A stretch of 64,000 nt of DNA from Puccinia triticina (lineage: Eukaryota; Basidiomycota; Pucciniomycetes; Pucciniales; Pucciniaceae). Every line of letters starts with the position of its first letter. The first letter of the stretch is position 1. The notes under the pieces are model-generated. The model was not told the DNA's origin. It did no database searches and worked only from the letters and a program-made list of their open reading frames with translations. The stretch covers positions 5,606,001 through 5,670,000 of the forward strand of contig NC_070567.1 of NCBI RefSeq assembly GCF_026914185.1, read 5' to 3'. Positions 10 through 42,870 of the stretch are shown piece by piece. Position numbers and translations under genes: made by a program.

Positions 10-2523
10 ATGTCTTTTATTTTCTTTCTCAAAACTAAAACCAAAGAAGAAGTATTCAATGCAATACAATCATTTATAACACGTGCCGAAAGACATTGCG
101 ATCGTAAAGTGAAAATGATTACTTCGGATGGCGGTGGCGAATTCCTCAATTCCCTATTGATACCTTTCTGCGAAAGTCTCGGCATAGTTAAAAATACTAC
201 CGCACCATACACGCCCCAACAGAATGGTCTAGTTGAGCGCTTCATGAGGACCATTTCCACAAAAGCGAGGTGCCTACTTCTTCAGAGCGGTGTATCTAGT
301 CGTTACTGGAGCCTTGCATGCGATGCAGCAGTCTTCATCCAAAATCGAATCTTCAATAAATCTCGAAATGGACTTCCGGAATCAGCCTATGAGCTATGGT
401 ACGGACATAAGCCTAATCTCAATTACATTAGGACGTTCGGTTGTCTAGCATACATTCATAATCGAAAAACGCAAATGGAGAACAAATTCAGTCCGACCTC
501 CAGAAAAGGCTTCCTGGTCGGTTTTGACGAATTCAATCGTAACTACATGATCTTTGATTACGAAAGCCAGAGAATTTTGGTTACCCACGACGTGACTTTT
601 GACAAGAACACCTTCCCTGAAAAGGGGGAAGATGGGGACGAAAGCTTCATTATTGAGGACGATAGGATTGTCCTAGAACCCAAGGAACCGGACGTCAATC
701 CACCTCTCATTCGGGACAATGAGGATGAATCGGAATCTGATGATGAACTACTTCCTAATATTGCACCAATGCCAACCACAATCAAAGTGATTCCTCCGAA
801 ACCGCCGATCAATCATCCTGACAACCCGAACTATGTCCGCCGATCTACTCGGATTGGTCAAATGCCCAAGCGATCCTACTTGACGTTGAATCAAAACCAA
901 TGCCACAATGCTGAGATAGTGGATCCGAAGTATGAGCCAAAACGCTTCAAGGATATCTTCAAGTCAACATTCAAAGGAAGATGGCTTGAAGCATGCAATA
1001 AGGAACTCGAAGGAATGCGCAACAAAAAAGTCTACAGTCTCACAGCCCGTCCGAAGAATCGGAAAGTCATCAAAGGCAGATGGGTATTTAAGGTCAAGAC
1101 TCTCCCAGACGGAAATATCTCAAAATATAAAGCGCGGTTCGTCGCAAAAGGATATACGCAGGAGGAAGGTATAGACTACGACCAAACGTTCTCTCCAACA
1201 GGAAAACCGTCGTCCCTGCGCATGATCATCGCACTAGCCACCAAGAACAACTGGATTATTGAACAGATGGACGCTGTCGCGGCGTTTCTGAACAGTGACC
1301 TCGATGAGGAGATCTATATGGAACAGCCAGAAGGTTTTAATGAAGGCAATGATGATCAAGTCTGGCGTTTGCACAAATCGATCTACGGACTCAAACAATC
1401 GGCAAGGCTCTGGCACATTGAAGTTGAGAAATACCTCAAAACTATCGGTTTCATCAAGACGGAGGCGGATTCCTGTGTATTCTACCGCTTTCGAAATGGT
1501 AAACAGAGCATACTCTACCTACATGTTGATGATATGATAATCACCGGTGATGAGATCTCAACAGTAAAGGGCGAAATCAAAGAAAAATGGGCGATGGAGG
1601 ATCTGGGGATAGCTAAATTTGCGGTGGGTATCGAAATTGAACGGGACGTACACGGAAACTATTCTCTTCATCAAAAAGGAATGATCTTGAATGTATTGGA
1701 GCGTTTTGACATGGCCAACTGTCGACCAGCAAGCACCCCTTTTGGTTATAACGTCAAGCTAATTAAATCTACCGACGAAGAATCAAAACTCTTCATTGAA
1801 CGGAATCAACGGTACCGCAAGGCGGTCGGCTCTTTGATGTACATCGCAATATGCACACGTCCGGACATCAGTTTTGCCGTCGGCGTATTGTCTAGATTCC
1901 TGGAGAAGCCGAACCAAAAACACTGGGATTCTTTTCTACACGTTCTCCGTTACTTAAAATCCTCAATCAATTACAGGATCACTTACCAAGCTCACCGAGG
2001 AGAAGATCTATCTGCCAACCCAGGTTGGAATTTTCCCAAAATGGCCAGTGACGCGGACTGGGCTGGCGATCGATCTACCCTGCGCTCAACGACAGGCTAC
2101 GTTTTCAAGTTCATGGAGGGCGCAATCAGCTGGCGCAGTCGTTTACAGCCGACTGTTGCACTATCATCAACTGAGGCGGAGTATAGAGCAATAACTGAAG
2201 CCGGCCAAGAAGCTTTATGGCTCATGAAGTTAATGAAAGAGTTACGAATTCAAATCAAGACCCCGCTGGAAATGGTATGCAACAACCTTAGTGCCATTCA
2301 TTTGGCCCAAAACCCGGTACACCACGGCCGTGTTAAACATGTTTCCATCGAACACCACTGGATCCGCGAACACGTGCAAGATGGGACTTTTAAAATGAAG
2401 CACGTATACACTTCCAACATGGTGGCCGACATCCTCACCAAAAATCTAGGCAAGGCTCCGTTCTCAAAATTCCGACACATGATTGGTTTGAAGGATGCAG
2501 TTCGAATTGAGGGGGACTGTTGA
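10..2523 (+). CDS. Ty1/Copia polyprotein, C-terminal part (integrase to RNase H), cut by window edge
   Basis: Open frame of at least 837 codons that continues upstream past base 1, so the given start is not a real start. Order seen: integrase core with the second acidic residue in TSDGGGEF and the Glu in NGLVERF; Copia reverse transcriptase (FVAKGYTQEEGIDY, then catalytic YLHVDDM); RNase H (ASDADWAGD, LSSTEAEY, C-terminal VADILTKNLG). The first integrase Asp lies outside the window. No stop or frameshift is visible and the motifs shown are intact, so this copy may be young. A polypurine tract (about 2507-2517) and a TG-starting LTR follow directly. Gag and protease are not in the window. It differs clearly from the two minus-strand Copia copies downstream. 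Confidence 0.93.
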   Translation: MSFIFFLKTKTKEEVFNAIQSFITRAERHCDRKVKMITSDGGGEFLNSLLIPFCESLGIVKNTTAPYTPQQNGLVERFMRTISTKARCLLLQSGVSSRYWSLACDAAVFIQNRIFNKSRNGLPESAYELWYGHKPNLNYIRTFGCLAYIHNRKTQMENKFSPTSRKGFLVGFDEFNRNYMIFDYESQRILVTHDVTFDKNTFPEKGEDGDESFIIEDDRIVLEPKEPDVNPPLIRDNEDESESDDELLPNIAPMPTTIKVIPPKPPINHPDNPNYVRRSTRIGQMPKRSYLTLNQNQCHNAEIVDPKYEPKRFKDIFKSTFKGRWLEACNKELEGMRNKKVYSLTARPKNRKVIKGRWVFKVKTLPDGNISKYKARFVAKGYTQEEGIDYDQTFSPTGKPSSLRMIIALATKNNWIIEQMDAVAAFLNSDLDEEIYMEQPEGFNEGNDDQVWRLHKSIYGLKQSARLWHIEVEKYLKTIGFIKTEADSCVFYRFRNGKQSILYLHVDDMIITGDEISTVKGEIKEKWAMEDLGIAKFAVGIEIERDVHGNYSLHQKGMILNVLERFDMANCRPASTPFGYNVKLIKSTDEESKLFIERNQRYRKAVGSLMYIAICTRPDISFAVGVLSRFLEKPNQKHWDSFLHVLRYLKSSINYRITYQAHRGEDLSANPGWNFPKMASDADWAGDRSTLRSTTGYVFKFMEGAISWRSRLQPTVALSSTEAEYRAITEAGQEALWLMKLMKELRIQIKTPLEMVCNNLSAIHLAQNPVHHGRVKHVSIEHHWIREHVQDGTFKMKHVYTSNMVADILTKNLGKAPFSKFRHMIGLKDAVRIEGDC

Positions 2524-2726
2524 AGTTTATGCATCTCGGCCAAATACAAACTTCCAATTATGCATACGCAGTAATGAAACTTCAATTCTCACTCGCATCC
2601 AAAGCATAACCATCCTTAACCTAACCTAATCAAGATTCCCCCGGCAACAAAACAAATCACTCCGCCCGAGCTTGCTGGTTTCTTCTTCACGCGTTTACAT
2701 CCTATTAACCCGTGAAGAAGAGACTA

Positions 2727-2833
2727 GTAAGTAATTCTCAATCATCACCCAAACAACACCGATCAACAAAACAAACTAACAACCATCTCATTCTTTTTCT
2801 TCTTTCTCTCACCATCAATCAAAATGTACATAG
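2727..2833 (+). other. Intron 1 of the LTR leader
   Basis: 107 bp, donor GTAAGT, acceptor ACATAG, CTAAC-type branch site near 2776 and a T/C-rich stretch before the acceptor. It is supported by a perfect flanking copy at 3092-3278 in which exactly these bases are absent (agacta joins aacatt at 3129/3130). Confidence 0.85.
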
Positions 2834-2912
2834 AACATTATCTCCTTACGCGTCCTTCACCCGAACCCCACAAAACCAAAAACCCAAATCATATCATCCT
2901 GCGCAATCGCAG

Positions 2913-2996
2913 GTAGGCCATTATCTTTTATCTTTTTATATTGCTCTTCAATCCTTCTAACTATCTATGTTTATCTTCTTTTCTTCTTTTTATCAG
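2913..2996 (+). other. Intron 2 of the LTR leader
   Basis: 84 bp, donor GTAGGC, acceptor TATCAG, branch-like CTAAC near 2957, T-rich before the acceptor. In the second copy cgcag joins gtgtgttatt directly at 3208/3209, precisely removing this interval. Confidence 0.85.
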
Positions 2997-3091
2997 GTGT
3001 GTTATTGAGAGTTGTCGTCGTCGTTGCTGCTAGAGTTGTCTAACATAAGAAACTTGTTCCACTAAGGTTAGTTAGAAGAAATAAAATCTTA

Positions 3092-3348
3092 ACGCGTTTA
3101 CATCCTATTAACCCGTGAAGAAGAGACTAAACATTATCTCCTTACGCGTCCTTCACCCGAACCCCACAAAACCAAAAACCCAAATCATATCATCCTGCGC
3201 AATCGCAGGTGTGTTATTGAGAGTTGTCGTCGTCGTTGCTGCTAGAGTTGTCTAACATAAGAAACTTGTTCCACTAAGGTGTGTTATTGAGAGTTGTCGT
3301 CGTCGTTGCTGCTAGAGTTGTCTAACATAAGAAACTTGTTCCACTAAG
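3092..3348 (+). repeat. Intron-less (spliced) copy of the LTR leader plus an extra exon unit
   Basis: Exon A (2689-2726), exon B (2834-2912) and exon C (2997-3066) recur here contiguously as 3092-3129, 3130-3208 and 3209-3278, with no mismatch that I could find over about 187 nt. Exon C is then repeated once more (3279-3348). A 24-bp spacer (3067-3091) separates the intron-bearing and intron-less copies. The arrangement is what reverse transcription of a spliced leader would give. Confidence 0.85.
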
Positions 3349-3360
3349 TTTTTATTGCCA

Positions 3361-4482
3361 TCGTGCTACGATCTCCTGAGCCAATTCTATCTAAAGTTTA
3401 CAAGAGACAGACTTCCAAGCGGAGCTGAATTGATCTATCATAGCAGGTATGGGAGCAGCTGAAGGCAATTGCGGGCTTGGGTCTGTTGAACGACGATAGC
3501 CAGAGTTGATGAGAGGAGCTACGAGGTCAGAAGAAGTACTAGCTATTTGATCATAGACGTTGCGGCACTCCCTTGCTTTGGAGGAATTTTCAAGGAGGCG
3601 GGTACCCGGATAAGTCATATCACCCGCCATACGCTTGTGTAGAGCATGGCGGGCGAGTGAGGAAGGGGAATGAGCGACACATAGAAATAGGAATGCAAAG
3701 GGCAAAAGGATCATCGTGGCAAAGAACAATGTCAACAGGGGATGATTGTTGGTATGACTGTTGATTTGGGTTAGCTGGAGGGGACGAGGGAATTCCCCGA
3801 CTGCAACGGCGGGACGCGGGAATTGGAGGACTTCCCGTCGCAATCTGGGAGCAATCTGAGAGCCTCCCAGAGTCTCAAAGCCTAAATTTCCCTGCAAAAT
3901 TTGGCTCAGATCTGGGTCTGGAAGGGGTTCCCAGATTGACGGGAAGTCCTCCATTCGGTGTTCCATCTGATGTGGCAGGAAGTGGCCAATACATGAATGG
4001 AGCTGATTCCCAAGGCAAGATCCGCCGACATCCGTTGTACCACCTAAAACAAAAACAAAACTAAAGTTTCCGGTCTGTTTCATACGGAAGCACTGGACCG
4101 ACACCAATCGCGCCAACAATTTCTGACATCCAATTCGGTTTCCGACTTCGAGTTTCACCTTTGGTATCCAAACATGCTGAAGTGACTGAAGTAATGAGAA
4201 TGGTAATGCAGATGGGAGAAACAGACTCTGCAGTCTGTTTCCCTACCTAAATACGGTCTCGGGGCCGGGCGAGTGTCACATGCCGTAACCTAACAGGTTA
4301 GGTTACAACAGATGCCAGTCGGACTTCCCATGCCGGCATCTGTACAGATTTTCTAAACACATAACCCAAAACTACAAAACTTCGGGGTGTTGCCTTGATG
4401 GCCCGCCCACCATGTCAACCCGCATCAAAGTCAGCCTCTTGGCAGGTCCTCTATGGCAAGAATTCAGACAGGGACCTCATAC
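3361..4482. other. Non-coding stretch with one MITE; no gene recognised
   Basis: A 255-codon minus-strand frame (3391-4158) runs through the MITE at 3825-3952 and shows no family motif, so I do not call it a gene. A short palindrome (gtaacctaacaggttaggttac-like) lies near 4276. Sequences resembling ccaatcgcgccaa occur at about 4110 and 4750 and may mark remnants of one old LTR element. Confidence 0.4.
3825..3952. mobile_element. MITE, GGAGGACTTCC family, copy 1
   Basis: 128 bp with inverted ends GGAGGACTTCCCGTC / GACGGGAAGTCCTCC extending into CAATCTGGGA. It is flanked on both sides by ATT (3822-3824 and 3953-3955). The same ends and the same ATT flanks recur at 38068-38223 and 54211-54370. 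Confidence 0.8.
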
Positions 4483-8142: not shown

Positions 8143-8464
8143 TGATGAGCGGGACAGGGTCTAGAGACAGCGGGCACGAGACGCCGGTGAGTGATGATGA
8201 TGTGGAAGGATAATTGCACGTCAGACACAAAGAAAAGAGAAAAGACAAGAGAAGAGAGAATGAAGACTATACCTAGAGACAGCGGGCACGAGACGCCGGT
8301 GAGTGATGATGATGTGGAAGGATGAGGGAAAAGTCCTTCCACACCCGCTGTCTCAGGTGAACTAGCTACAAGCTGTGACATCTGAGTGAACTGAGAGTGA
8401 TATGTATGTAGCACACGCAACAAAGAAAAATAAAGATGAAAGATATAAACCTGTAATCTTAACA
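8143..8464 (-). repeat. 3' LTR of the young Copia element
   Basis: 322 bp, contains an internal direct repeat of a roughly 50-bp block (gagacagcgggcacgagacg...). It lacks a 20-bp purine-rich unit present in the other LTR. The polypurine tract lies immediately after 8464 (C-run on the plus strand). Confidence 0.92.
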
Positions 8465-8734: not shown

Positions 8735-11700
8735 TCAAGGTAGAGGTTTGGTGAGCATATCCGCCAGCATTTCCTTGGTGGATACGTGTAGGAGTGTGAT
8801 GGAGCCGTCCTGAACGCATTCGCGGATGAAATGATAGCGCGCGTGGATGTGTTTGGTGCGCGCGTGGTGTTCCGGGTTTTTCGCCAAAGCCTCTGCCCCT
8901 TTGTTATCGACGTGGAGAGGTATGGCGGTATCAGGGCGCAGGCGAAGTTCGGTGAGGAGGTGTTGCAGCCAGAGACCCTCTTTGCAGGAGTCTGAGAGCG
9001 CCTTGTACTCCGCCTCCGTACTGGATAATGAGACCGTTGCCTGTTTCCGAGATTTCCAGGAGATAGCTCCGTTGCCCACGCGGTAGGTGTATGCGGACGT
9101 CGAGTGTCTATCATCTCGGTCTTCGGCCCAGTCCGAGTCCGAGTAGCCAGACAGAGTGAGATGACCGCCGAGTTGGAGTTTGAGATTCTTTGTTGATACC
9201 AGGTAGTGTAGGATGCGAAGCGCGGCGTGCCAGTGAGCCGCAGACGGGTCACGTAGGTGTTGCGATAGCCTGTTTACCGCAAAGGAAATGTCCGGACGGG
9301 TGCATTGTGACACCCAGAGAAGGGACCCAATTAGTTGGGGGTAGGGACCCGGCGACGGCTGATCTTCTGGCTTTCGATGACAGAGGTTTTTGAAGTTGCT
9401 ATTGGTTGGAGTGGCCACCAAGATGTGAGGTCCGTCCAGGAAACGGCCGGCGATTTCGGTGATATAGTGGCACTGGTTGAGAAAGACGGCCTTGTTCGGA
9501 ACGTCTTGAGTAATTTTTAGGGAAAGGAAATGATTCAATTCTTTGTCTGCACCGATTTTGAACCGTTTTCCTACATCTGAAATGATGGAGTTCACAAATG
9601 ACGGCTCGCCCACGATAGCTAAATCGTCAACGTGAGTTGTCAACGCGCCAACCAGCCGCCCGGATTGGATCTTGAAGTAGAGGGTCGGATCGTACTTTGA
9701 GTTCTTGAGGCCTAAGTCTAAGAGAGCTTTGTGGAGTTCAATGTTCCACTGACGGGGGGATTGTTTCAGCCCGTACAGAGAGCGACTGACCTCGCAGACC
9801 CAGTCAGGGTGTTGAGGGTCTTTGAAGCCGGGAGGTTGCTCCATGAATATGGGTTTGTCGAGGTGTCCGTTCAGAAATGCTGTCTTGAAGTCTACCTGGC
9901 GCCCTTGCCAGTTACGACATGCAAGGAGAGAGAAGATCAGTCGCAGAGTCTCCAGGCGTAGAGTCGGTGAGAAAACCTGGTCGTAATCTAGCCCTTGGAC
10001 TTGAGTGTAACCCATTGCCACAAGGCGAACTTTGAGTTTTTGGATGGACTGATCGGGGCGGCGCTTCACCTTGAAGACCCATTTGGACTTGATGATCTTT
10101 CTTTTGTCCGGTCTTGGGACCAGACGCCACGTCTGCATGCCTAGGAGCGACGCGAACTCTTCATCAGCGGCCTTGAGCCATTTGCTCTTGTTGGGAGACT
10201 TGAGAAGTTGTCGCCACGTCTTCGGGGTGTCGATTTCAGAGTTTACCGCGGCGTTTTTTGACCATTGACCGTATCGATCAGGAGCTTTGCGGTCCCTTGC
10301 GGAACGGCGACGGGGAGGAGGAGAATCTGGCTTGGGGGGCTTCGCTGGTGACGGGTGTGACCGAGAAGGCTCAGGGATGGATGGCGAGGGAGACGAGGTG
10401 GGAGAAGTATGCGGGGGAGATTGGGGAGCTGGTGAAGGGGCTGGGGAAGAAAGGGGTGGCAGGGATATGACTGAGAGGTCTGGGGATTGTCGGGAGATTG
10501 ACGAGTCGGAATTGGAGGAGATTTCTTGCGGGAGACGCGCCGTGTTCCCTGGCGCGTGAATGGAAGCCGTCAAGCGCCGATCAAACCGTGGTTGGAGTGG
10601 TATGTCTAAGGGAGGGAGATCAGGTGTTAGCGTACGAGGAGGGACTTGTGTGTCTGGGTTTGAGGGAGGAACCGGATCGGGGATAGGAGGTGCGGGACGG
10701 AGTGGTGGATTGGGGGGGGAAATTGTGGGTGGCTTGTTTGTCTGCAGCTCGGACCAGTCAATCTCTACTGCAACAGGGGAAGGTGTTTGGTTAAGTTGCG
10801 AACCGTAGGGAAAGGATGCATTGTTGAATATGACATCCCGTGACTTGATGACTGACCGTCGCTCCAGATCCCACAGTCGGTATCCGTTGCCGTCTGAGAG
10901 ATAGGACAAGAGGATAGAAGAGCGGGCTTTGGCGTCCAGCTTCTTGCGGTTGGCTTCCGGGGTTTTGTACCAAACTAGGCACCCGAAGGGATGGATGGCC
11001 TTGGCGTCGATTGGTTGTTCGCCGAGAATAGAGACCGGAGGTTTGAAACCTACAGGAGTATTACATGGGAATGAGTTGTAGGCAAAGGAGAAATGCCGGA
11101 TCGCATCAACCCAGAAGGATTTGGGGAGGTTGGCCGTCAGCAGGGAAGATCGGACAAAGTTGCTAATGGTTCTGTTGGTCCGTTCGGCCACTCCATTCAA
11201 TTCCGGCGAGTGAGGCGGGCCCGGTTCGTGTTTGATACCTGCTTGAGACAAGTAGTCGGAGAATTCGTTCAAGATGTATTCGCCGCCGTTGTCCGTTCTC
11301 AACGATAAAATTGTGTGGATACCACTTCTCTCAAAAAGGGCACAAAAAAGTTTGAAACATGCAAAAGAATTGCTCTTTGATTTCATTGGATAAATGGAAA
11401 GAGACTTGGAACAATTGTCGACAAAAGTTATGAAATACTTGTACCCCTCCCGTGAAATCTGCTCGTAGGACCCGACATTGGAATGAATTAGTTGGCCAGG
11501 TAGAGATGATCGGTGTGAAGATCGTGAGTGGAATGCCTTGCGGGGCATTTTTGCTTGAATACAGATTGGGCACTTTTGGACATCAATTTCATTCATAACT
11601 GTTGGTGTGATGTTGTGAAGTTTGAGGAAGGATTTGAGGGGTTTCAAGCCGACGTGAGAGAAACGAAGATGGTATGCCATCAGAGAGTTGTTTGGAGTTG

Positions 11701-13144
11701 TTGAGGAAAGAGTTAGAGACGAATTCGAGCTCACAGGCTCAGAAGGCAAGTAATAGAGATTGCCCCTTCGGTATCCTCTCCCGGTGAGTTCGCCGGTTAT
11801 AATTTGGGCCGTTTGATTAGTAAGGAAGTCGCATGAGGTTTTAGTGAAGACGACTGTCAGTCCCTCGTCGCACAGGGCGGCTACTGAGAGGAGAGGTTCG
11901 TGTAGGGATGGAACCACAAGGGATTTGACAGATCGTTCGCCGGAGAGTGGGAGTTTAAAGAGACCTTTGTGAGATGACTCGACTGTGGAATGGTCGGCTA
12001 GTCGGACAGGGGTTCTGTCAGGTTTCGGGAAGTTGACTGCCGTGATGTCCGGTGTCATCGACATTGAGCATCCCGAGTCTATATTGGCGTCCCCTCCTCG
12101 TACTGGATTGGAGGGAATGGAAAGAGATACCACAGTGTTTCCAGCGGTGACTTCGACTTCCGAGCCCGAATAGTCTGAGTCATCGTCCTCGTCGTACTTG
12201 TGGGAAGATTGGCCTAGCGTGGCCGCCGAGGTTCTGCCCGCTCGGGCCACAGGTTTGAAGGAAGAAGAACCCTTGTCTTGCTGACTCGCTTCCCAGCGTG
12301 CTTTCTGAGCCGCTTTGTGGTCGGCGATGAGTTTCCTCGTGTTGTTGCACGAGTTGAGGTCATGCGAGTCATTGTTGCATAGGGGGCAACAACAGGGTTT
12401 CTTTGCGGCGTCATTTCGAGGACCTTTGGAAGGGTTGGTCGGTGGAGGCGCCTTGGATGAATTTGCCTTGGTGGAGGAGACAGAAATGATGTCGCCGTGA
12501 GACTCGCGGCGGATAGCTTCGTTTTTCAAGGCTGATATGATTATTTCTGCCTTGACCCTCTCCTGATTCATGAGCGCCAAGACGCAGTGGAGCCAGTCGG
12601 GAGGGATGGAGCTGATGAGAGCAGCGGTATGAACATCGTCTGGGGTGAGAGGTTTGGTGGGAGTGACTAAGGCGTTGAGGCGTTCGTACGAATTCGCGAG
12701 AGATTCGATGTGCGAGTGAATGTCGTTACCCTCCATGCGGGAATTGACTAACTTGCGGATCCAGTACACGCAACCACCAGTCGAGGAGTCTTGGTGAGCG
12801 CGGGACAGGTCGTCCCAGATCTTGGCGGCGTTATCTTCGTCGGCTAGGTGACGGAGATTGGTCTCGTCGACGATCTGCACCAGTACAGCACAGACCAAGT
12901 CGTTGTCTTCTTCCCACGTGGCCGGTCGACTGTTGGGGGCCACTGGAGTTAGGACATGATTGACCTTCGCGGATTTCAGCACGCGAAGGACTACTTTCTT
13001 CCAGTTTAAGTAGTTGGATTCGGACCCCGGCGCTTTGAGGATTGGGAGCCTCGCCGTTGAGATTTTTGCGGTGGAGGCGGAGGCTTGCGAGCCGAGATTG
13101 ACGCTGGTATGGGTTGATGGGACCTCTTTGGTGTCGTTCGACAT
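8735..13144 (-). CDS. Copia gag-pol polyprotein (1469 aa), young copy
   Basis: Uninterrupted frame from ATG 13144. Order: Gag-like helical region; zinc knuckle CPLCNNDSHDLNSC (about 250); protease DSGCS (about 355); pre-integrase zinc region (HLRFSH ... CPICIQAK); integrase with RTDNGGEY and NGVAER; RT with VDFKTAFLNG and THVDDLA; RNase H with SDSDWAED and LSSTEAEYKAL; end MLADMLTKPLP. The first integrase acidic position, normally HSD, reads HSN (codon AAT), which should abolish strand transfer although the frame is intact. The position follows from the family; I infer a G-to-A change in a CpG. Products would act in cytoplasmic particles and then the nucleus. Confidence 0.95.
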   Translation of the reverse strand: MSNDTKEVPSTHTSVNLGSQASASTAKISTARLPILKAPGSESNYLNWKKVVLRVLKSAKVNHVLTPVAPNSRPATWEEDNDLVCAVLVQIVDETNLRHLADEDNAAKIWDDLSRAHQDSSTGGCVYWIRKLVNSRMEGNDIHSHIESLANSYERLNALVTPTKPLTPDDVHTAALISSIPPDWLHCVLALMNQERVKAEIIISALKNEAIRRESHGDIISVSSTKANSSKAPPPTNPSKGPRNDAAKKPCCCPLCNNDSHDLNSCNNTRKLIADHKAAQKARWEASQQDKGSSSFKPVARAGRTSAATLGQSSHKYDEDDDSDYSGSEVEVTAGNTVVSLSIPSNPVRGGDANIDSGCSMSMTPDITAVNFPKPDRTPVRLADHSTVESSHKGLFKLPLSGERSVKSLVVPSLHEPLLSVAALCDEGLTVVFTKTSCDFLTNQTAQIITGELTGRGYRRGNLYYLPSEPVSSNSSLTLSSTTPNNSLMAYHLRFSHVGLKPLKSFLKLHNITPTVMNEIDVQKCPICIQAKMPRKAFHSRSSHRSSLPGQLIHSNVGSYEQISREGYKYFITFVDNCSKSLSIYPMKSKSNSFACFKLFCALFERSGIHTILSLRTDNGGEYILNEFSDYLSQAGIKHEPGPPHSPELNGVAERTNRTISNFVRSSLLTANLPKSFWVDAIRHFSFAYNSFPCNTPVGFKPPVSILGEQPIDAKAIHPFGCLVWYKTPEANRKKLDAKARSSILLSYLSDGNGYRLWDLERRSVIKSRDVIFNNASFPYGSQLNQTPSPVAVEIDWSELQTNKPPTISPPNPPLRPAPPIPDPVPPSNPDTQVPPRTLTPDLPPLDIPLQPRFDRRLTASIHAPGNTARLPQEISSNSDSSISRQSPDLSVISLPPLSSPAPSPAPQSPPHTSPTSSPSPSIPEPSRSHPSPAKPPKPDSPPPRRRSARDRKAPDRYGQWSKNAAVNSEIDTPKTWRQLLKSPNKSKWLKAADEEFASLLGMQTWRLVPRPDKRKIIKSKWVFKVKRRPDQSIQKLKVRLVAMGYTQVQGLDYDQVFSPTLRLETLRLIFSLLACRNWQGRQVDFKTAFLNGHLDKPIFMEQPPGFKDPQHPDWVCEVSRSLYGLKQSPRQWNIELHKALLDLGLKNSKYDPTLYFKIQSGRLVGALTTHVDDLAIVGEPSFVNSIISDVGKRFKIGADKELNHFLSLKITQDVPNKAVFLNQCHYITEIAGRFLDGPHILVATPTNSNFKNLCHRKPEDQPSPGPYPQLIGSLLWVSQCTRPDISFAVNRLSQHLRDPSAAHWHAALRILHYLVSTKNLKLQLGGHLTLSGYSDSDWAEDRDDRHSTSAYTYRVGNGAISWKSRKQATVSLSSTEAEYKALSDSCKEGLWLQHLLTELRLRPDTAIPLHVDNKGAEALAKNPEHHARTKHIHARYHFIRECVQDGSITLLHVSTKEMLADMLTKPLP

Positions 13145-13272: not shown

Positions 13273-13614
13273 TGATGAGCGGGACAGGGTCTAGAGACAG
13301 CGGGCACGAGACGCCGGTGAGTGATGATGATGTGGAAGGATAATTGCACGTCAGACACAAAGAAAAGAGAAAGAACAAAGAGAAAAGAGAAAAGACAAGA
13401 GAAGAGAGAATGAAGACTATACCTAGAGACAGCGGGCACAAGACGCCGGTGAGTGATGATGATGTGGAAGGATGAGGGAAAAGTCCTTCCACACCCGCTG
13501 TCTCAGGTGAACTAGCTACAAGCTGTGACATCTGAGTGAACTGAGAGTGATATGTATGTAGCACACGCAACAAAGAAAAATAAAGATGAAAGATATAAAC
13601 CTGTAATCTTAACA
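13273..13614 (-). repeat. 5' LTR of the young Copia element
   Basis: 342 bp; identical layout to the 3' LTR plus a 20-bp A/G-rich insertion near 13370. It starts TGATGAGC and ends TTAACA on the plus strand, with CAGTG following. Confidence 0.92.
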
Positions 13615-13616
13615 CA

Positions 13617-14050
13617 GTGGACCGGGAGCGGTCCCTCCCGGTCGAGAATCGCATACCACAGTCAACTGGGAGCAGTCCCTCCCGGTCAACAGTCACCTCC
13701 AACAGGCAACCGGGAGCGGCCCCTCCCGGTCGAAATCAACATACACATGTTGACCGGGAGGAGTCCCTCCCGGTCGACATCACCACACACATGTCGACCG
13801 GGAGGAGTCCCTCCCGGTCGAGAATCGCATACCACAGTCAACCGGGAGCAGTCCCTCCCGGTCAACAGTCACCTCCAACAGGCGACCAGGAGCGGCCACT
13901 CCCGGTTGACATGTGTATGTTAGGGACTGCTCCCGGTCAACTGTGGTATGCAATTCTCGACCGGGAGGGACTCCTTTGGGTTGTCATGTGCATGCTGATG
14001 TTGACCGGGAGGGAGTCCTCCAAGTGCTTGTTTGTCTGGTCCTCTTGACC
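13617..14050. repeat. Dyad minisatellite (CCGGGAG..CTCCCGG), about 45-bp unit
   Basis: Tandem units each centred on a palindrome such as GACCGGGAGGAGTCCCTCCC, separated by alternating linkers (gtcgacatgtgt-, agaatcgcataccaca-like). The linkers occur in both orientations. Reading frames stay open across it in several frames and are not genes. It is the same kind of array as 40929-42640 in the sister element. Confidence 0.85.
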
Positions 14051-16634: not shown

Positions 16635-17343
16635 TAATGCTGACACTTTCACAAAGCTTGACCTACGGAACGCATACGGCAACCTATGGGTAGCGGAAGG
16701 CGATGAAGAGAAGCTAACCTTTGTGTGTCAAGCCGGACAGTTTGCCCCATTGACAATGCCCTTTGGGCCAACAGGGGCACCTGGCTTCTTCCAGTTCTTT
16801 ATCCAGGATATCTTATTGGGGCGTATCGGGAAGGACACGGCAGCATATCTTGACAAAATCATGATCTATTTGCAACTGGGGTTGGATCACGAAGAAGTGG
16901 TCCTTAGTATCTTGGGAATTCTCGGTAAACATCAGTTATGGCTCAAGCCGGAAAAGTGCAAGTTCTCAAGGACAGAAGTTGAATACCTGGGACTTCTAAT
17001 ATCAAAAAATCAAGTCCAAATGGATCCTACCAAGGTTAAAGCTGTATCAGAGTGGCTGGCTCCTGCTAATGTAACCAAATTACAACGCTTCATTGGCTTT
17101 GCAAACTTTTGGCGGCAATTTATTGGACAATTCTCCAGGACCACCCGACCCCTCCACGACTTGACAAAGGCAAATACCCGTTTCATTTGGGATGTGGAAT
17201 GCAACAGGGCGTTTGAGGCCCTCAAGACAGCATTTACGACGGCCCCCATCCTAAAAAATCGCGGATCCCTACAAACCATTCCTGCTCAAATGCAATTGTT
17301 TGGATTGTGCGTTAGGCGCGGTTCTATCACAGGTGTGCAATAA
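16635..17343 (+). pseudogene. Ty3/Gypsy reverse transcriptase fragment (dead)
   Basis: Begins mid-domain: FTKLDLRNAYGNLWV ... FVCQAGQFAPLTMPFG ... FFQFFIQDILL ... AYLDKIMIY ... VEYLGLLISKNQVQMDP. The catalytic Y-x-D-D box reads YLDK, so the second Asp is lost. A frameshift at about 17255-17265 moves the reading into the next frame. 5' truncated at the border with the Copia remnant. Confidence 0.88.
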
Positions 17344-19105
17344 GAATAATGAACTCCATCCTGTTGCGTATCTATCCTGGTCCCTAATTCAAGCAGAACA
17401 GAACTATGAGATATTTGACAAAGAGCTTTTGGCAATAGTGGCGGCCTTGAAGGAGTGGCAACACTATCTGGAAGGCAACCCCAACCGACTGAAGGCCATT
17501 GTCTACACTGACCATTGCAATTTAGAAAGCTTCATGGTCAGCAAGAGTCTGAGCCGACGGCAGGCCAGGTGGGCAGAGACGTTAGGAAACTTCGACTTTG
17601 AACTCATCTTTAGACCCGGCAGACAATCAACCAAGCCAGATGTGTTGTCACAATGCCCCGACTTAGCACCAACAGACGCGGAAAAACTCAGTTTTGGACG
17701 ACTACTAAGACCCAATAATATAATGCCAGAAACATTTGCCGCCATAGCCGAGTTTGAAGAGTGGTTTGTTGATGAGTCTATTGACCTGGAGGATGCCCAT
17801 CATTGGTTTCAGGTGGACATACTGGGAGTCAAAATGAGCGGGGAACCGGGAGAGGGAGTCACTGAGAAGTTGATCCCATCAGATGAGTACTTGATGAGTA
17901 AGATACGTGCGGCAACCCAGCAAGATGAAAAGCTGATGTCTTTGGTTGATGATTGCCGGGCAGGACAAGTCAATCCAGACTCAAAGTACTTGTACAAGGA
18001 TGGTGTCCTGTACTGCAACAGATGTGTTGAAGTGCCTGGGGATGACAATCTGAAGAGGGTGATAGTTGAGAGTTGGCATGGCTCAAGGCCAGCGGGCCAC
18101 CCGGGACAGGCAAAGACACTGGAGCTTGTTAGGCAATGTTTCAACTGGCCCGCGCAGAAGAAATTTGTTAACCAATATGTTGAAGGCTGTGATTTGTGCC
18201 AACAAGTGAAGGCTTCCACACAGAAACCGTTTGGACTACTAGAACCACTCCCAATCCCCGCGGGACCGTGGACGGATATCTCATACGACTTGATCACCAA
18301 TTTGCCGGAGTCAAATGGCAAAGACAGCATCTTAACAGTAGTAGACAGGTTGACTAAAATGACCCACTTCATACCGTGCAAAAAGACAACTACAGCTACC
18401 AAACTAGCAGACTTGATGACCCGTCACATATGGAAACTTCACGGGACGCCCAAGACAATTGTCTCTGATTGTGGTAGCATCTTTATCTCTCAGATTACTC
18501 GGGAACTCAGCAAACAGCTAGGCATTAGGCTATGCCCGTCGACGGCCTGTCACCCAAGGACAGACGGGCAGTCAGAAATTGTTAATAAGGCAGTCGAGCA
18601 ATACTTAATACACTTTATCAGATACCATCAAGACAATTGGGAGCCTTTACTAGCAACCGCTGAATTCGCGCACAACAACCACAGTCATATTTCAACAGGG
18701 ATGTCGCCGTTCAAAGCTAATTACGGATTTGACTTGACATTTGGGGGTATCCCATCTTTGGAGCAATGCCTGCCGGCGGTGGAAGCACAACTGCAGCTAC
18801 TGGAGAGGGTGCGAGAAGAGCTAGCGGCAGGACTGGAGGCGGCACAGACATCAATGGCAGCGCAATTCAACAAGAAAGTCCGCAAAACTCCTATGTGGCA
18901 GGTTGGCGATGTGGTATGGCTGAACAGCAAGAACATATCATCAACAAGACCTAGCCCTAAATTTTCACATCAATGGCTAGGCCCATTTTCTATCTCTTCT
19001 AAACTCTCACCGTCAGTATATACGCTGACATTACCTAACTCCATGAAATGGGTTGGAGACAACGGGGGGAGCAGTGAATCAACGTGGGTTTCACGTATCC
19101 AGTGA
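17262..19105 (+). pseudogene. Ty3/Gypsy RNase H and integrase, continuation after frameshift
   Basis: RNase H (ALGAVLSQ ... QNYEIFDKELLAIV ... TDHCNLESF), with the usual first Asp apparently Asn (KCNCLDCALG). Then the integrase zinc region (HPGQAK ... GCDLCQQ) and catalytic core with Asp in ISYDLI, Asp in VSDCGSIF and Glu in DGQSEIVNK, all kept. C-terminal domain WQVGDVVWL ... LGPFSI. Stop at 19103-19105. The ORF itself is open but it depends on the broken RT upstream. Confidence 0.88.
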
Positions 19106-23072: not shown

Positions 23073-26018
23073 CTTCATGTGCCACTGGACATGGAAATCC
23101 TTGGGGAGTATCTTCTCGCCATCCATTGCGCGCTGCTGGAGTGTATGCTTACAAGGAATTCCCATCCGGTTTTCGTAACACCCGTTGCACCTGTGCCAAT
23201 TCTCCAGGTCAACACTTGCTCTCAGATTATCCTGCGCCTTCCGGAGAGCAAAGTGGGTGATCCGGCCGTGACAGAGCAAGAAAATCTTCCCTATTGATTG
23301 AAGGCTTCTAATCTTCTTCTTGTGATGCGCCGCGGAGATTTCGTGGGACTAAGCTTCAAGCGCATTCGTGATTAACTTGATGACGGCTGCAAAAGAATTG
23401 TTGGGGCCCAGGAGATAAGATTTGATGAAAGCATGCGATGATTCAATTCGAGACGTCGTCCGATGGTCGAAATGAGGTATATCCTTTGTCCAAGCGTTAG
23501 CATACTTTTCACACACCAGAAGCCATGTCTCAATCATATAATCTCCAAAACCTTCGCCATATTTTGCGCAAAACCGACTGAAGCTTGAACGGAAATCGCC
23601 TGGACTAGTCATCTTGATTAAGTTGCTCCAGTGTTGAAGCATTTCGAACTCCTTTGCCTTGTTCTTGATGTGTTTCGCGCCATTGGAGACCAAGTTCTTC
23701 TGTATGTGCCAAGTGCAAAGCATGTGGGTTGAATCGGGAAAATTGGACTGGAGAGAGGAGATGAGATCTTCTTCTCGGTTGGTCAGAACAACAGCAGGAA
23801 GGGGAATCTTGTTCAAGGTGAAAACTGTCAGGAGGGATTCGAGCGCCCAGTCGTAATAATCTTGTGTCTCTTTGGCAAGAAAGCAGAATGCCAAACTGAA
23901 AGACTTGTTGGATCCAGTGACACCAGTGATGTGGAGGAGAGGCATCCAATACTTATTCGTCTTGTATGTACAGTCAAGGAAAAGGATCAAATGGTACTGA
24001 TGGAGAAGCTTCACAGAGAGGGAATGACAGAAAAAAAGGCCCTTGAGCTCGCCGGATTCATTGACCTTTGTCATAGTTGTGAAATTGGTTCCAGCCAGAA
24101 TTTCATTCAGGTGAATGATGGGACTGATTCCTTGCAACATCTCTTGCGCAGCCCGCTTTTGTGCTGAGTAAATCATATCAATTGTGGCCAGGATTGTCTT
24201 GTCAGGGTGCAGCTTCTTGAGGCATTCAAGTATTTGTGCCGGTCGCAATCCGGCCTCGCCAAGTCTTTTCATTTCTTTGTAGAGATTGTTGCTGAGCTTA
24301 CAGTGGACAGTGTGGGCGACGGCGGCGGTGGGGCGGTGATTATGAGTCAAGTTGGAGACTGTGAATTTCCAGTGGCCCTTCTTCTTCTGGTTGTATACGG
24401 CAGCGTTGAACGGACAGCCAATCAATCGAGATGATATATTGTCATGAGTATCACCTTTACGTTTATTTTTCGCAGGATCACCTCCTCTGTATCATTTCAA
24501 TGTGGATATAATGTCAGTCAATACTAACAGAAGAATGAAAAAGAAGTGGGAAATAACAGACCTGACACATTTAAAATGGACACTTTTTCCAGGAACAGAG
24601 TGTTTGACCAATATCCCATAGCCATGCGCACAAGCAAATTCTTGGATGGCCTCCTTAACCGATTCAACATTGTCATAATTTCCAGCTGGCGGCGCAGGAA
24701 TGTTGCCGTAGATTGTCCTTTCTCCTTCTTCATTTACTGAGTCTTCATCATCCGGTTGATTCTTGTTCTCAAGTTCCATTTCTTCGAGCTCCTTCTCAGT
24801 TCTCTCTTCAGCAATTTTCTCAAGTATTTTCTCGATTTCTTCTGGTTTTTTTTCAGTTGGAACGGTTCCAGAGTTTGGATCATTGTTAGTATTATCTTCA
24901 TCTAATTCTAACATTACAATACAATCTTCTATGGTTTTCTCTTCTCTGGCTAGCTCTACATATTCCTCAAGTGTCTTCTTCTTGTCTGGATTATCTAAGC
25001 TATAATCTGCAACTTCTTCCTCATTTTCTTCGTGGATTTTGTTTTCTAGTTTTTTTTTTGGCGATTTCTTGAGTAATTTGAAGGAGGAGGGGGTCTAGGG
25101 TGACGTCTTGAAGGTCTTCAGTGGTCTGAATGCAGGCTTCAACGGCGGCAATGGCCTGGGATTTGGCGGCTGCGGTTTGGGAGTCGGCGGCTGAATGGGA
25201 GTCGGCGGCTGCCGTTTGGGAGTCGGCGACGAAATGGGAGTTGGCGGCTGCCGTTTGGGGGTCGGTGGCTGCGGGACGTTGGGATTCGACGGGGTCACGG
25301 GAGTCAGCGGGGGCTAGACCTTGATCACGGGAGTCGGCGGGGGCTAGACCTTGAGTACCGCTGGCTAGGACGGCTCCTTGGGGGTCTAGAATGGCCAGGG
25401 TGGCTCCGTGGTCCTGGGCTGCAATCGCAAGGGAGTCGACCGCGATCGCAAGGGAGTTGGTGTCAATGCCAGACCCGTTTGCGGGGCCTTTGGTGGCGTC
25501 TTCATTGGCAGCTGGATCAAGGGCAGGAACAAGGGTGTTGGGGGCTCAGTGCCTCCATTTTGGATGGGGGAGGGGGCTTACCTGGCCCTGAGGCTGGGGT
25601 TTCCTCGGCGTGCTTGCCAGCCACTGGGGGCTTGGTGTGCTCGCCAGGCACTGGGGCCTTGGCGTACTCGATGGCGGCGACAGGGGGCTTGGGGTGCTCG
25701 ACGGCGGCCACAGGGGGCCCGGAGTGCTCCATGGCGGCGACAGGGGCCTGGGAGTCCTGGTCCTGGACGGCGGCGGGGGCGGCTGGGTTAATCATATTTG
25801 TTTGATCGATTGGGCGGTTGGGGTGGACGGGTGGGCAGTGATCGGGCGGTTGGTGTGGCGGTTGTGGTGTGTGACTTGTGTGATGGGTGGGGGGCTCGAA
25901 GGGGAGCCGTCACGACTCCCTGGGGGCTTCCGTGGCCCCCCCGGCCGACTCCCGAAATAACGCAGGGGGCACTTGTTTTGGGTGAACGACTCCCAAACCC
26001 CCCGAGGAAAAAATATTA

Positions 26019-38742: not shown

Positions 38743-40147
38743 TTAAGCAAGAGAAGTAGAAGAACGAGAGGAGATCAAAGGACGGGTGTCGGGGTCGGGA
38801 TCCAAGCAAGGGTGATTCGTAGATGGAGATCGTAGGGGAGGACTAGGATTGATGACATTACTACAAGTGATTGAGGGTGAGGAGGGAGGGGGGGAGCGTG
38901 TTCTATGGATGGATGAACAAGTGTCGGGAGGAGGACGATAGAGTCTGCTCTGGATGAAGATGGTCAAGTCGAAGCAGAGCGTGCCGGCGGAGCCGATCAG
39001 ATAGGGCACGGACTCGTTGAGGTAGTCGAGCTTCTGGCCACCCGGCTTCTGGCCAGGGGGGTGGCTGAGCAGGATCTGGGGCGAGCTGAGGATGCTGAGG
39101 ACGTAGGTCAGGTTGCCCAGGAAGGCCAAGACAAAGAGCAGGATCGAGAGGCCTTCGACCGATTTCCGGCTGTAGTTCTTCATGATCTGCGGGATGCGGG
39201 AGGTCAGATATAGGAATGCACAGAGCCAGGCCGACAGTCTGCCGATCGTCTGCTTCATCGATTCTTTCGTTCCCTGATCATCTATCACCTTGATCTCCGC
39301 CAGCTCATCCTGCGCCTTAAGCTTTCCTAGAGGAGGCCTGGATGGGTGACTAAGATCCCGATCTTGAGTCGGATTATGTGCTTCAAAGCTTGGGGTTGGA
39401 TGGGCGTGATTTGTCCATGGCCGAGTGAGAGAGTTTTTAGATTTGTGAGCGAGGAATGAGGATGATGAGTGGTGGCTGGTGATCTGAAAGGCGACAAAGG
39501 CAAAGACCACCAGGAAGAGGAATGCTTTCAGATTACAACATCGTAGTACTCTCGTAAATCTCGAAGGAGAATAGCAGGGCGGGTTCGATGGATTGTTGGC
39601 GGGTAGATTGGATGGAAGTGGGGTCCCTGAGTGAAGTGGTTGAGGGAAGGCAGCTTTCGGGGTTTGATGCGGTTGTGGATGGGGATGAGAAGCGAGATCT
39701 AGGCCGAGTTTACTGTGAGTCGGGGTTCTTTCGATGTCGATTGGATTGCTCGGATGTGTTTCTGAGATAGGAGTGTAGTGATGGGTCTGGTTGTCGATAG
39801 CTTGAGAGGATGGGGGCTGTGCTCGCGAGTAGAGCGCGAACTGGGCGATGAGGACGAGATCGATGAAGTTGAAGTAGATGGCCAGGTTGCGCTGGAAGGC
39901 GAGCTGGTTGGTGAGCAGACAGCCGACCAGATTCGTCACATCGCCCGAGAGCCAGTTGAGCAGGAAGGGCAGCGAGAGGCCGGCGACCGATTTGTGCTGG
40001 TAGTTCGTCCAGATCTGCGGCAGCTGGGCGAAGAACCAGCACAGCTGGGACAGGTCGCCTGGAGTGGGACAGGGGGGGAAGTCAGTTCCCGCCGAGACAA
40101 GATGGCCAAGCGCGAGCTTACATACCCAGGAGATCAGAGACCAGCAT
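38743..40147 (-). CDS. PQ-loop repeat membrane transporter (Ypq/PQLC2-like), 445 aa
   Basis: Two exons: a 22-nt first exon (40147-40126, encoding MLVSDLL) and 40058-38743, with a 67-bp intron (GTATGT...TCCAG). Total 1338 nt. Two PQ-loop repeats are clear: FFAQLPQIWTNYQHKSVAGLS near residues 17-37 and TSRIPQIMKNYSRKSVEGLS near 310, each followed by hydrophobic helices (LPFLLNWLSGDVTNL; ILLFVLAFLGNLTYV). A long polar Pro/His/Ser-rich loop of about 190 residues separates them, with a hydrophobic segment AFLFLVVFAFVAF in it, and a Pro/Ser-rich tail ends the protein. Family members export cationic amino acids or cystine from vacuole/lysosome; the substrate here is inferred only. The intron was chosen because it brings an ATG directly in front of the first PQ-loop. 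Confidence 0.88.
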
Positions 40148-40638
40148 TCTGGGAGGGGATGTGTTCTTCTGGGCTGCAGTCGGGGTTCGAACTGTGCGAA
40201 TGTCGAGGTTCGGAGTCTGTGTCCCTGTGCACACAGCACTCGGGCTGGCCTGCACTGGCGCATCGTGTCACGCAGCTGGAGTCGGCTCACCTGACGCGCC
40301 CCGGCGATAATCATCATCCGCCCGGCGCGTCACTCATATTCTAACTCCCTCTGCTTATGAATTGGCTTATCGCTGCAAAGAAAATAAAAAAACCAGCGGG
40401 GCTTGCCGATTGCTGCCCGTATGAGTGTAACAATTCGACTGTTGTACATAAATATTAGATGTAGAAAGACTACTCGGAGAATTCAGGATAAACCCTTCTT
40501 TCATTCAATTTTAACCATTCAGGGAAATGTCATCAAGATACATAACATCCTGATGTGTGCCACTGCGCCTCCGGGCTTGCCGTGCCAGAAGCGCACAGCC
40601 ACACTTTCTGCTTCTGACCGGAACAATCTTTGAGCAGA
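40148..40638. other. Duplicated upstream segment (PQ-loop 5' flank / peptide cluster unit 1)
   Basis: 40140-40420 resembles 47200-47450 (shared ggattggcttatcgc-like end, ctggcctgc, tgtgtcacg). 40440-40638 resembles 48900-48990 plus 49600-49690 (aaacccttctttc, cgcctccgggcttgccgt, ggaacaatctttgag). This is the start of the first of three paralogous units and lies between the divergent PQ-loop gene and peptide gene 1. Confidence 0.65.
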
Positions 40639-42870
40639 CACTATGAAAAAAACTCAAGAAACTGGTGTCAGTTGACATGCAGCATACTTGAGTTCAGTCT
40701 CCCTTACAACAAGCTTCATACAAAATGAATCCCAGGGTGGTGCACCCTGGAATATTTGGAATTTACTCAACGGTTCAGGCTAAGCAGTATGTTGAGACTC
40801 TGCTTAGCCACACTAACTTTGGAGATGCTCAGCTGGTACAGCAGTGGCACCTAAGTACATACATTACCAGTGCCCTTGTCAACTGGGAGGCATCCCTCCA
40901 GCTAACACACAAGGCCTTAAGCTTGACATACACCCGGGAGAGATCCCTCCTGGACAACTGCTTCATACACCAGTTGTCCAGGAGGAATCCCTCCCAGACA
41001 ACAGATACATACAACATCCATACAGCAGTCGCCCAGGAAGGATCTCTCCCGGACAACTGCTTCATACACCAGTTGTCCGGGAGGAATCCCTCCCGGACGA
41101 CAGATACATGCAAGAGTCACCCGGGAGGGATCTCTCCTGGCCGACTGCTTTGTACACCAGTTGTCCAGGAGGGATCCCTCCCAAACAACGGCCCCATACA
41201 ACAGTTGCCTCGGAGGGATCCCTCCCGGACGACTGCTTCATACACCAGTTGTCCGGGAGGAATCCTTCCCGGACAACAGATACATACAAGAGTCGCCCGG
41301 GAGAGATCCCTCCTGGCCAAATGCTTCATACACCCGCTGTCCGGGAGGGATCCCTCCCGAGCAACGGCCCCATACAGCAGTCGCCCGGGAGGGATCCATC
41401 CCGGTTGACAGATACATGCAAGAGTCTCCCGGGAGGGATCCCTCTTGAACCACTGTTTGATGAAGCAGTTGGCCAGGAGGGATCCCTCCCGGGCGACTCT
41501 TGTATGTATCTGTCGTCCAGGAGGGATTCCTCCCAGACAGCTGGTGTATGAAGCAGCCGTCCGGGAGGGATCCCTCCCGGGCGACTGTTGTATGGGGCCG
41601 TTGTTCGGGAGGGATCCCTCCTGGACGACTGGTGTATGAAGCAGTCGGCCAGGAGGGATCCCTCCCGGGCGACTGTTGTATGGGGCCATTGTTTGGGAGG
41701 GATCCCTCCTGGACGACTGGTGTATGAAGCAGTCGGCCAGGAGGGATCCCTCCCGGGCGACTCTTGCATGTATCTGTTGTCCGGGAGGGATTCCTCCCGG
41801 ACAACTGGTGTATGAAGCAGTTGTCCGGGAGGGATTCCTCCCGGACAACTGGTGTATGAAGCAGTTGTCCGGGAGGGATCCCTCCCGGGCAACTGTTGTA
41901 TGGGGCTGTTGTTTGGGAGGGATCCCTCCTGGACAACTGGTGTATGAAGCAGTCAGCCAGGAGGGATCCCTCCCGGGCAACTCTTGCATGTATCTGTCGT
42001 CCGGGAGGGATTCCTCCCGGACAACTGGTGTATGAAGCAGTCGGCCAGGAGGGATCCCTCCCGGGCAACTGTTGTATGGGGCTGTTGTTTGGGAGGGATC
42101 CCTCCTGGACGACTGGTGTATAAGCAGTTGGCCAGGAGGGATCCCTCCGGGGTGACTCTTGCATGTATCTGTTGTCCGGGAAGGATTCCTCCCGGACAAC
42201 TGGTGTATGAAGCAGTTGGCCGGGAGGTATCCCTCCTGGGCAACTGTTGTATGGGGCCGTTGATTGGGAGGGATCCCTCCCGGACGACATTTGTATGAAG
42301 CAGTTGTCTGGCAGGTGACAACTGTTATGCAAGGCCATTGTCCTGGAGGGATCTCTCCCGGGCAACTGTTGGAGGGATTCCGCCCGGTCGACTGTTGTGT
42401 TACGTTGTCGACCGGGAGGGAGTCCTCCCAGGCAAGACAGTTGCATATAGCTGTCAACCGGGAGGTATTCCGCCCGGTCGACTGTGGTGTTGCGTTGTTG
42501 ACCAGGGGCAGGAGGGATTGCTCCCGGTTGTGTTATGTTGTTGACCGGGAGGAATCCCTATTCCTCCTGGTCCACGTGGGTGAGCGCATGTGGCCTTTTC
42601 TGTTGGAGGGAGGGATGCCTCCCGCTTGAAAGGGTGCTTGTATGTATTCTGCTGTGCCAGCTGAGCAGCTCAAAATGAACTGTGCACAAAGTTAGTGTGG
42701 TGGCTGGTGTGGTTAAGCAGAGTCTGAACATACTGCTTAGCCTGAGCTAATCCATAAAAATACATGGAATCAACCAGGAATAAAGCTGGACAAACTCAGG
42801 AATGTGGCATTGTATCAGCCCAGATCTGGCATGTCAACTGACACCAGTTTCTCAAGTTTTTTTCATAGTG
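40639..42870. mobile_element. CACTA-like non-autonomous element with dyad satellite, TSD AGA
   Basis: 2232 bp. Ends CACTATGAAAAAAACTCAAG and the exact inverted CTTGAGTTTTTTTCATAGTG family pattern, extending over about 40 bp (GAAACTGGTGTCAGTTGACATG). AGA is duplicated (40636-40638, 42871-42873). Subterminal inverted blocks (aggctaagcagtatgtt ... gcttagccacactaac) follow. The interior is almost all minisatellite and there is no transposase. It splits the conserved upstream block of peptide gene 1; the paralogous units at 47700 and 49680 lack it. CACTA ends with a 3-bp duplication fit the CMC/EnSpm superfamily. Confidence 0.9.
40929..42640. repeat. Large dyad minisatellite, about 44-bp unit, head-to-head halves
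   Basis: Dozens of units centred on CCGGGAGGGATCCCTCCCGG and variants, with linkers such as gcttcatacacca or tgtatgaagc. Linkers to the left of about 41450 run in the opposite orientation to those on the right, so the array is itself one large inverted repeat. Frames stay open across it on both strands (up to 446 codons, repeated GIPPG), which is an artefact of repetition. Confidence 0.9.

Follow-up and report, generated by a model that had tools for sequence, protein, structure and literature searches.

We found that a Copia long terminal repeat (LTR) retrotransposon of the fungus Puccinia triticina has LTRs in which a leader segment is present first with two introns and then again, within the same LTR, with both introns exactly missing, and that this composite layout recurs widely among related LTRs of the genome. 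The element reaches into the window, by which we mean the whole stretch of 64,000 nucleotides that was analysed (NCBI RefSeq assembly GCF_026914185.1, contig NC_070567.1, positions 5,606,001 to 5,670,000, here C10:5606001-5670000, in a genome of 122.8 Mb and 18 contigs). We propose that these Copia LTRs have a doubled R and leader introns, that a cDNA (complementary DNA) of the spliced leader is transferred to the second R, and that an RNA stem protects the first intron; for this mechanism as a whole we estimate a probability of about 0.7. The preliminary description of this DNA had the mechanism right in kind, and the phenomenon is larger, since it looks like a self-renewing LTR design that keeps its introns.

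The 3' LTR of the element occupies positions 2518-3402 (885 bp, TG..CA) of the forward strand, on which all its parts are read; the preliminary description had given the leader feature as 2689-3348, which is only a portion of it. Following U3, we observe exon A (2689-2726), intron i1 (2727-2833, 107 bp, GTAAGT..ACATAG), exon B (2834-2912), intron i2 (2913-2996, 84 bp, GTAGGC..TATCAG), exon C (2997-3066, starting GTGTGT and ending AAG) and a piece x (3067-3091), which holds the poly(A)-signal-like AATAAA and whose GTTAGT would be the start of a third intron, i3. Just 3' of AATAAA come A' (3092-3129), B' (3130-3208), C' (3209-3278), C'' (3279-3348) and D (3349-3402), the end of U5. Upon comparing the copies letter by letter, A equals A', B equals B', and C equals both C' and C'' with zero mismatches, i1 being missing between A' and B' and i2 between B' and C', so that the contiguous recurrence of A, B and C minus two GT-AG introns, and the third copy of C, hold as first described. 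C'' is joined to C' at an exon-exon-like border (AAG|GTGTGT), and on its 5' side the A repeat continues for a few more bases (TCTT at 2684 and 3087, one mismatch). A textbook LTR reads U3-R-U5 with one R; the window LTR departs from this plan, and from that of Ty1/copia elements, in that the R-like exon A is doubled with GT-AG intron-like pieces between its copies. We take A as R1, the candidate 5' end of the RNA, and A' as R2, in or near which the RNA 3' end would fall. A small inverted repeat, CCTGCG..CGCAGG, lies at the end of exon B just 5' of the i2 donor (e.g. 2898-2914), and by eye a similar CTGCG..CGCAG is seen in some other families.

The element spans C10:5603195-5609402, and its 5' LTR (C10:5603195-5604079), outside the window, is identical to the 3' LTR. 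Both sides of the element are flanked by the target site duplication AGAGA (3403-3407 on the 3' side), and the 3' LTR is preceded by the purine-rich GAGGGGGAC. In the 5' LTR, D is directly followed by TGGTAGCGAGAG, at the position expected of a primer binding site, and shortly after by ATGGCCGAC, taken as the putative gag start. The window holds the 3' part of the polyprotein (10-2523; integrase, SH3 and reverse transcriptase), with Pfam domains in the order rve, SH3 and RVT_2, rve scoring under the curated cut-off on this partial protein. Integrase preceding reverse transcriptase within one polyprotein, paired TG..CA LTRs and a 5-bp target duplication are shared with Ty1/copia and place the element in Copia. 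Among the best 120 of 1623 protein matches, the first comes from Puccinia striiformis f. sp. tritici and covers 59% of the query at 72% identity, and a PDB search returned one distinct sequence, named Integrase. The same composite LTR is found in three independent insertions, namely this element, a solo LTR with TGTCT on each side, and another element with AGAAA on each side whose two LTRs have two substitutions in common.

When searching the genome for other LTRs of the family, a check that the preliminary description had put forward, a 20-base pattern for the exon A/i1 junction (at most one mismatch) gave 113 matches, compared with none in the reversed control. We read 93 distinct sites among the matches listed, obtained with a slightly different pattern from that behind the count of 113 and with seven further regions left out, and found the full chain A-i1-B-i2-C-x-A'-B'-C' at 58 of them, most of which also have C''. 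Chance is excluded as the origin of the repeat anatomy, because the same anatomy stands at so many related sites. The other 35 sites, sorted by hand with loose borders, comprise 7 partial or truncated composites, 13 degenerate or unclear cases, 6 of the form U3-A-i1-B-i2-C-D plus one without a detected D (C12:5408599), 2 with C-C-D and 6 of the form U3-A-i1-B-C(-C). Between one and three spliced copies of C are seen per LTR; additionally, C5:3995889 has lost i2 from the first copy and kept i1, and L042 (C9:527954) carries a 317-bp tandem unit A-B-C-C-x. Across the 58 composites, i1 always starts with GT and ends with AG in all but three (CCTCAT, ACATGG, GTTTAT), i2 has clean GT-AG borders in 56, and lengths range from 96 to 137 for i1 and from 83 to 117 for i2. 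Intron positions are shared even by LTRs that have just 66-87% identity to the window LTR over their matched parts, and because of these shared places the introns should predate the families. The reverse order, in which the intron-less form is ancestral and the introns were inserted later, had been named at the outset as the case that would overturn the first reading, and it fits badly with introns at the same places over such divergence.

Next, we compared the unspliced and spliced exon copies, using the 56 composites with a clean i2 border (2 of the 58 lack one), which reduce to 48 distinct rows for the tree. Exon copies inside one LTR differ by 0-8.5% and are mostly more than 95% identical, and in 49 of the 56 LTRs the two own copies resemble each other more closely than they do the nearest LTR diverged by over 3% in introns and U3. 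In a quick tree built from both exon copies of the 48 LTRs, labelled unspliced or spliced, the label changes 40 times, own copies are exclusive sisters in 21 of the 48 (hand count), and a single clade of spliced copies is rejected (dlnL 2148, p-AU 0.002, with 8 identical-row sets left free). Furthermore, over 19 pairs of related LTRs, hand-picked, sharing members and with counts summed over pairs, 148 exon differences are LTR-specific, 3 copy-type-specific and 202 private, a split which two separately inherited copies would give in reverse. For instance, C1:1130482 and C3:7498441 are separated by 17 LTR-specific exon differences and have the same AATAAAATTCACGCG junction. Since own copies are closest in 49 of 56 LTRs and a joint clade of spliced copies fails, the spliced copy has been renewed many times, very probably from a reverse-transcribed spliced leader. 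A single unusual strand-transfer event, inherited unchanged, could account for the subfamily of the window LTR, whose five LTRs are at most 2 bases apart, but it is contradicted by the tree of 48 LTRs and by the difference counts over the 19 pairs, and we reject it as scarcely credible. The example first described, if taken as a unique event, is in fact one case of a recurrent process.

In all 38 distinct junction sequences, AATAAA with at most one mismatch stands just 5' of A' (26 exact, 12 with one mismatch; 26 bases ending 4 bases into A'), and none of the 38 has it just 5' of A, with the limit that only the exact matches exceed what composition gives, because shuffling the A-rich stretch reaches 28 of 38 at one mismatch or fewer and 5 exact. 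With the textbook spacing of 10-30 bases between AATAAA and cleavage, the RNA 3' end would fall in or near A', so that the two ends of the RNA, with A at one and A' at the other, would supply ordinary R homology. The piece after the first C starts with GT in 31 of 32 LTRs, in one of which (C9:527954) it is a second C rather than x, and the remaining LTR looks shifted by one base in register; the C'-C'' and C|x borders are therefore splice-site-like, and the third C can be explained by a third intron running from C|GTTAGT to the AG that ends B' or C'.

Under the mechanism that we propose, the RNA would start at A of the 5' LTR and its leader would be spliced to A-B-C-(C)-D. The third intron, which would begin at C|GTTAGT and finish at the AG preceding C', C'' or D, would set the number of C copies; with it, A', B', a varying count of C copies and the 5' poly(A) signal would be removed. 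The other RNA end would be the unspliced 3' LTR, U3-A-i1-B-i2-C-x, cleaved in or near A' just past AATAAA. Minus-strand strong-stop cDNA of the spliced leader would then pair with A' and prime onwards, yielding a new LTR, U3-A-i1-B-i2-C-x-A-B-C-(C)-D, in which the introns are retained, the spliced part and U5 are made afresh and the junction is kept. A stem between U3 and A would hide the i1 donor only in the 3' LTR RNA, by which i1 would be kept. The earlier proposal that cDNA of the spliced leader was rejoined to the unspliced LTR at strand transfer is favoured by the family comparison, and an abnormal template switch is not needed, given that A and A' can act as ordinary R homology.

In three young groups of 10, 7 and 5 LTRs the junction position is identical throughout, and the junction letters are identical except for one substitution each in 2 of the 10. 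Transfer to A' fits both these agreeing positions and junctions that stay constant while the exons around them are renewed. We also considered a template switch that needs no R homology and that would each time afresh join the spliced cDNA end to end onto the 3' end of the RNA or onto its poly(A) tail. Long A runs at some junctions (12-13 A in C8:669160, C8:674504 and C17:2356132; 9 A in C12:4589831) and a 5' border of A' that moves by a few bases between families would suit such joining, which we nevertheless regard as unlikely, as a free jump would scatter the junctions that the young groups hold constant, and as junctions can persist through exon renewal.

If strand transfer occurred to A instead of A', an intron-less LTR would be expected, and such LTRs exist. 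They are found in both LTRs of two elements, L035/L037 (AACTA on both sides) and L040/L041 (CGGTG on both sides), and in a third case, L121, read in one LTR. L035, L037 and L040 have A-B-C-C joined as expected of spliced RNA, L041 having one C rather than two. They are uncommon: where A stands in a strict U3 context, the next base is the G of i1 in 47 places and a different one in 2. These LTRs also bear on the possibility of one old duplication whose copies have since been kept alike at the DNA level, by gene conversion or unequal crossing-over. Products resembling C/C' or B/B' deletions do exist, some about 5 kb from a composite LTR (C10:3616795, C4:5121666). Conversion between intron-bearing and intron-free copies should often move intron borders, whereas the borders are kept and the exon copies alike, and the presence of intron-less LTRs at both ends of two elements, each flanked by matching target duplications, indicates a step that preceded integration; DNA-only conversion as the main cause is thus rejected as very improbable.

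Several observations weigh against transfer of a spliced leader as set out above. In L065 (C3:7805900) and L055 (C1:5620303) the spliced copies retain the end of i1, and the border of the removed piece is not AG. The tandem at C9:527954 fits unequal crossing-over as well as it fits a retained i3. In the young groups junctions hardly vary and substitutions are few and mostly private, so that renewal is demonstrated as recurrent and not for each single cycle. Finally, an ATG is created at the border between the LTR and the primer site (ACA|TGG). Elsewhere in the window LTR, the spliced leader holds no ATG and i1 and i2 hold one each. As a test of the leader across the family, ATG depletion gave no usable result overall: exon C has 2 ATG compared with 14-61 for each other order of the three bases and i2 has 72, exon B has few of any order and i1 is poor too (6), so that only C speaks, and D carries 17 ATG within its first 50 bases.

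We then investigated the RNA fold around the i1 donor. The segment 2660-2745 forms a 22-bp stem (-35.6 kcal/mol, z -7.75; 0 of 200 shuffles as good), in which a 5' arm at 2670-2691, mostly U3 and upstream of the candidate RNA start, pairs with a 3' arm at 2711-2732 that contains the end of A and the whole donor CUA|GUAAGU. When the fold is started at 2684 it reaches -13.6 (z -3.6) with the donor outside that stem, and when started at 2689 it is nothing special (-4.1, z 0.5); A' in its own context gives no stem (fold z -0.3). Across 66 of the 67 distinct donor sites (C10:5907607, which has no U3 arm, was left out), 94.0% of 1452 cells are paired, compared with 42.5-52.2% when the arms are slid. 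One stem pair is C-G in 40 and U-A in 26 of the 66 sequences and never broken, other pairs alternate between A-U and G-U, and the tree forces at least 2 pair switches. The median unpaired probability of the i1 donor over 71 sites is 0.009 with the U3 arm and 0.656 without it (start put at -37 for non-composite sites), and it is lower with the arm at 68 of the 71.

In the 58 composites the A repeat has its start somewhere from -43 to -32 relative to the donor, which means that A' never has the outer U3 arm and that RNA 5' ends, as we infer them, fall inside or after the arm; consequently the full stem should exist only in the 3' LTR RNA and be absent at the RNA 5' end. Going by sequence and folding, two features of foamy-type, end-specific donor masking would be present, provided that the RNA start and poly(A) site are placed correctly, namely a donor that precedes the poly(A)-like signal and a stem that fits the 3' LTR RNA only. 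Masking of this type further includes suppression of poly(A) by U1 bound at the 5' end and a structure that keeps U1 off at the 3' end. Overall, we lean towards the stem being a device that keeps i1. Speaking against such a device, two of five stem measures are no better than shuffles, with 3 pairs changed on both sides (shuffle mean 2.2; 161/500) and 17 further pair types (shuffle 17.1; 396/500). Moreover, with the U3 arm the donor's unpaired probability falls below 0.1 at only 47 of 71 sites, longer context shrinks the i1 contrast to 0.010 versus 0.323 (48 LTRs), and the i2 donor is equally accessible at both transcript ends (0.405 versus 0.376 and 0.412). Instead of masking a splice site, the stem could also act as a packaging signal or, in DNA, as a dyad bound by a transcription factor, given its strong conservation and its place at the candidate RNA start. 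G-U pairs are frequent in it (U-G in 54 of 66 at one pair; G-U in 39 and 31 of 66 at two others) and would be mismatches in DNA, which argues against a dyad; the donor lies within the stem, and pairing of U3 with the donor border is seen in another family too, whose LTRs are different. We therefore consider this alternative doubtful, although it may hold beside the masking role.

This other family is represented in the window by a second Copia element on the minus strand, with a 3' LTR at 8143-8464 (E 8273-8323, GTATAG from 8272, E' 8161-8211, D 8143-8160), a 5' LTR at 13273-13614 (E 13423-13473, E' 13291-13341) and CACTG flanking both sides. Its open frame (8735-13144, minus strand, 1469 aa) is 39% identical to the first polyprotein over 543 aa, and BLASTN between the LTRs of the two families gives one 19-base match only (E 0.006). 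Just 3' of 13273 on the minus strand, after the 5' LTR, lies GGTTATGAGCCC, which, as in copia, may be complementary to the anticodon region of initiator tRNA-Met. The LTR follows a plan of the same kind as the first family's, U3-E|GTATAG..-E'|D, E being a 51-base repeat, and in ten relatives E is followed by GT and the second E by other sequence that runs to the LTR end (40 of 268 candidates scored; 10 of 38 non-window matches fetched). The E copies are 0-5 bases apart within an LTR and a median of 7 (0-13) between LTRs, and the 10 LTRs with a 51-base E (two with a 46-base E left out) show 205 LTR-specific differences, 141 private ones and 0 that go with copy type. In both LTRs of the window element, U3 pairs with E and the donor border (3' LTR -44.4 kcal/mol, z -5.6; 5' LTR -42.4, z -7.0; -5.5 without U3), and the unpaired probability of the donor border is 0.11 versus 0.49 (medians of 12); for the first four intron bases alone this contrast is small, and absent or reversed in several LTRs. 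Splicing in this family is putative, because the repetition of one exon is not in itself proof that an intron was removed. With odds hardly better than even, the two deeply diverged Copia lineages would represent a general LTR design of this genome, in which two copies of R enclose a donor and a poly(A) signal, spliced RNA serves to rebuild U5 in each or most cycles, and a 3'-only RNA stem lets introns survive the passage through RNA.

An element that replicates through RNA would be expected to lose its introns. The layout suggests a way to both use and keep them, with the intron-bearing copy upstream of R2 and the spliced copy downstream renewed by strand transfer, and it provides a testable explanation of why the 5' poly(A) signal of an LTR element is ignored and the 3' one used. 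If this is true, DNA alone records leader splicing of reverse-transcribed RNA in many independent cases. In the open-licence literature, subscription papers being outside the scope, we found no title on introns inside LTRs with an adjoining spliced copy. There is a likeness to foamy virus, for which an excerpt describes a major splice donor that sits in R, 5' of the poly(A) signal, and U3 nucleotides that, in the 3' LTR RNA only, lengthen a stem and leave fewer donor bases unpaired (PMC3694450). The LTR donor before the poly(A) signal and its end-specific hiding would be common to both, whereas neither an intron inside the LTR nor a stored spliced copy is described in that excerpt (PMC3694450), and the stem of the window LTR has 22 bp. 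BARE, another LTR retrotransposon, likewise has separate pools of RNA, of which one is spliced, but that spliced RNA is a subgenomic RNA for Gag, and introns inside the LTR are unmentioned in the excerpted text (PMC3735527). In split-intron retroviral vectors, reverse transcription carries a splice donor from the 3' LTR over to the 5' LTR, where it serves in the following round; as excerpted, these are engineered, with only the donor in the LTR and no self-renewing spliced copy (PMC3182074).

Elsewhere in the window, two tandem arrays (13613-13906 and 41024-42315) have a common palindromic unit type, CCGGGAG..CTCCCGG, the second with about 29 copies of 44 bp. Additionally, Pfam reports RNase H and integrase of Gypsy type at 17300-19105, a MULE transposase at 23349-24425, a PQ-loop protein at 38743-40317 and a mitochondrial carrier at 59362-60360.
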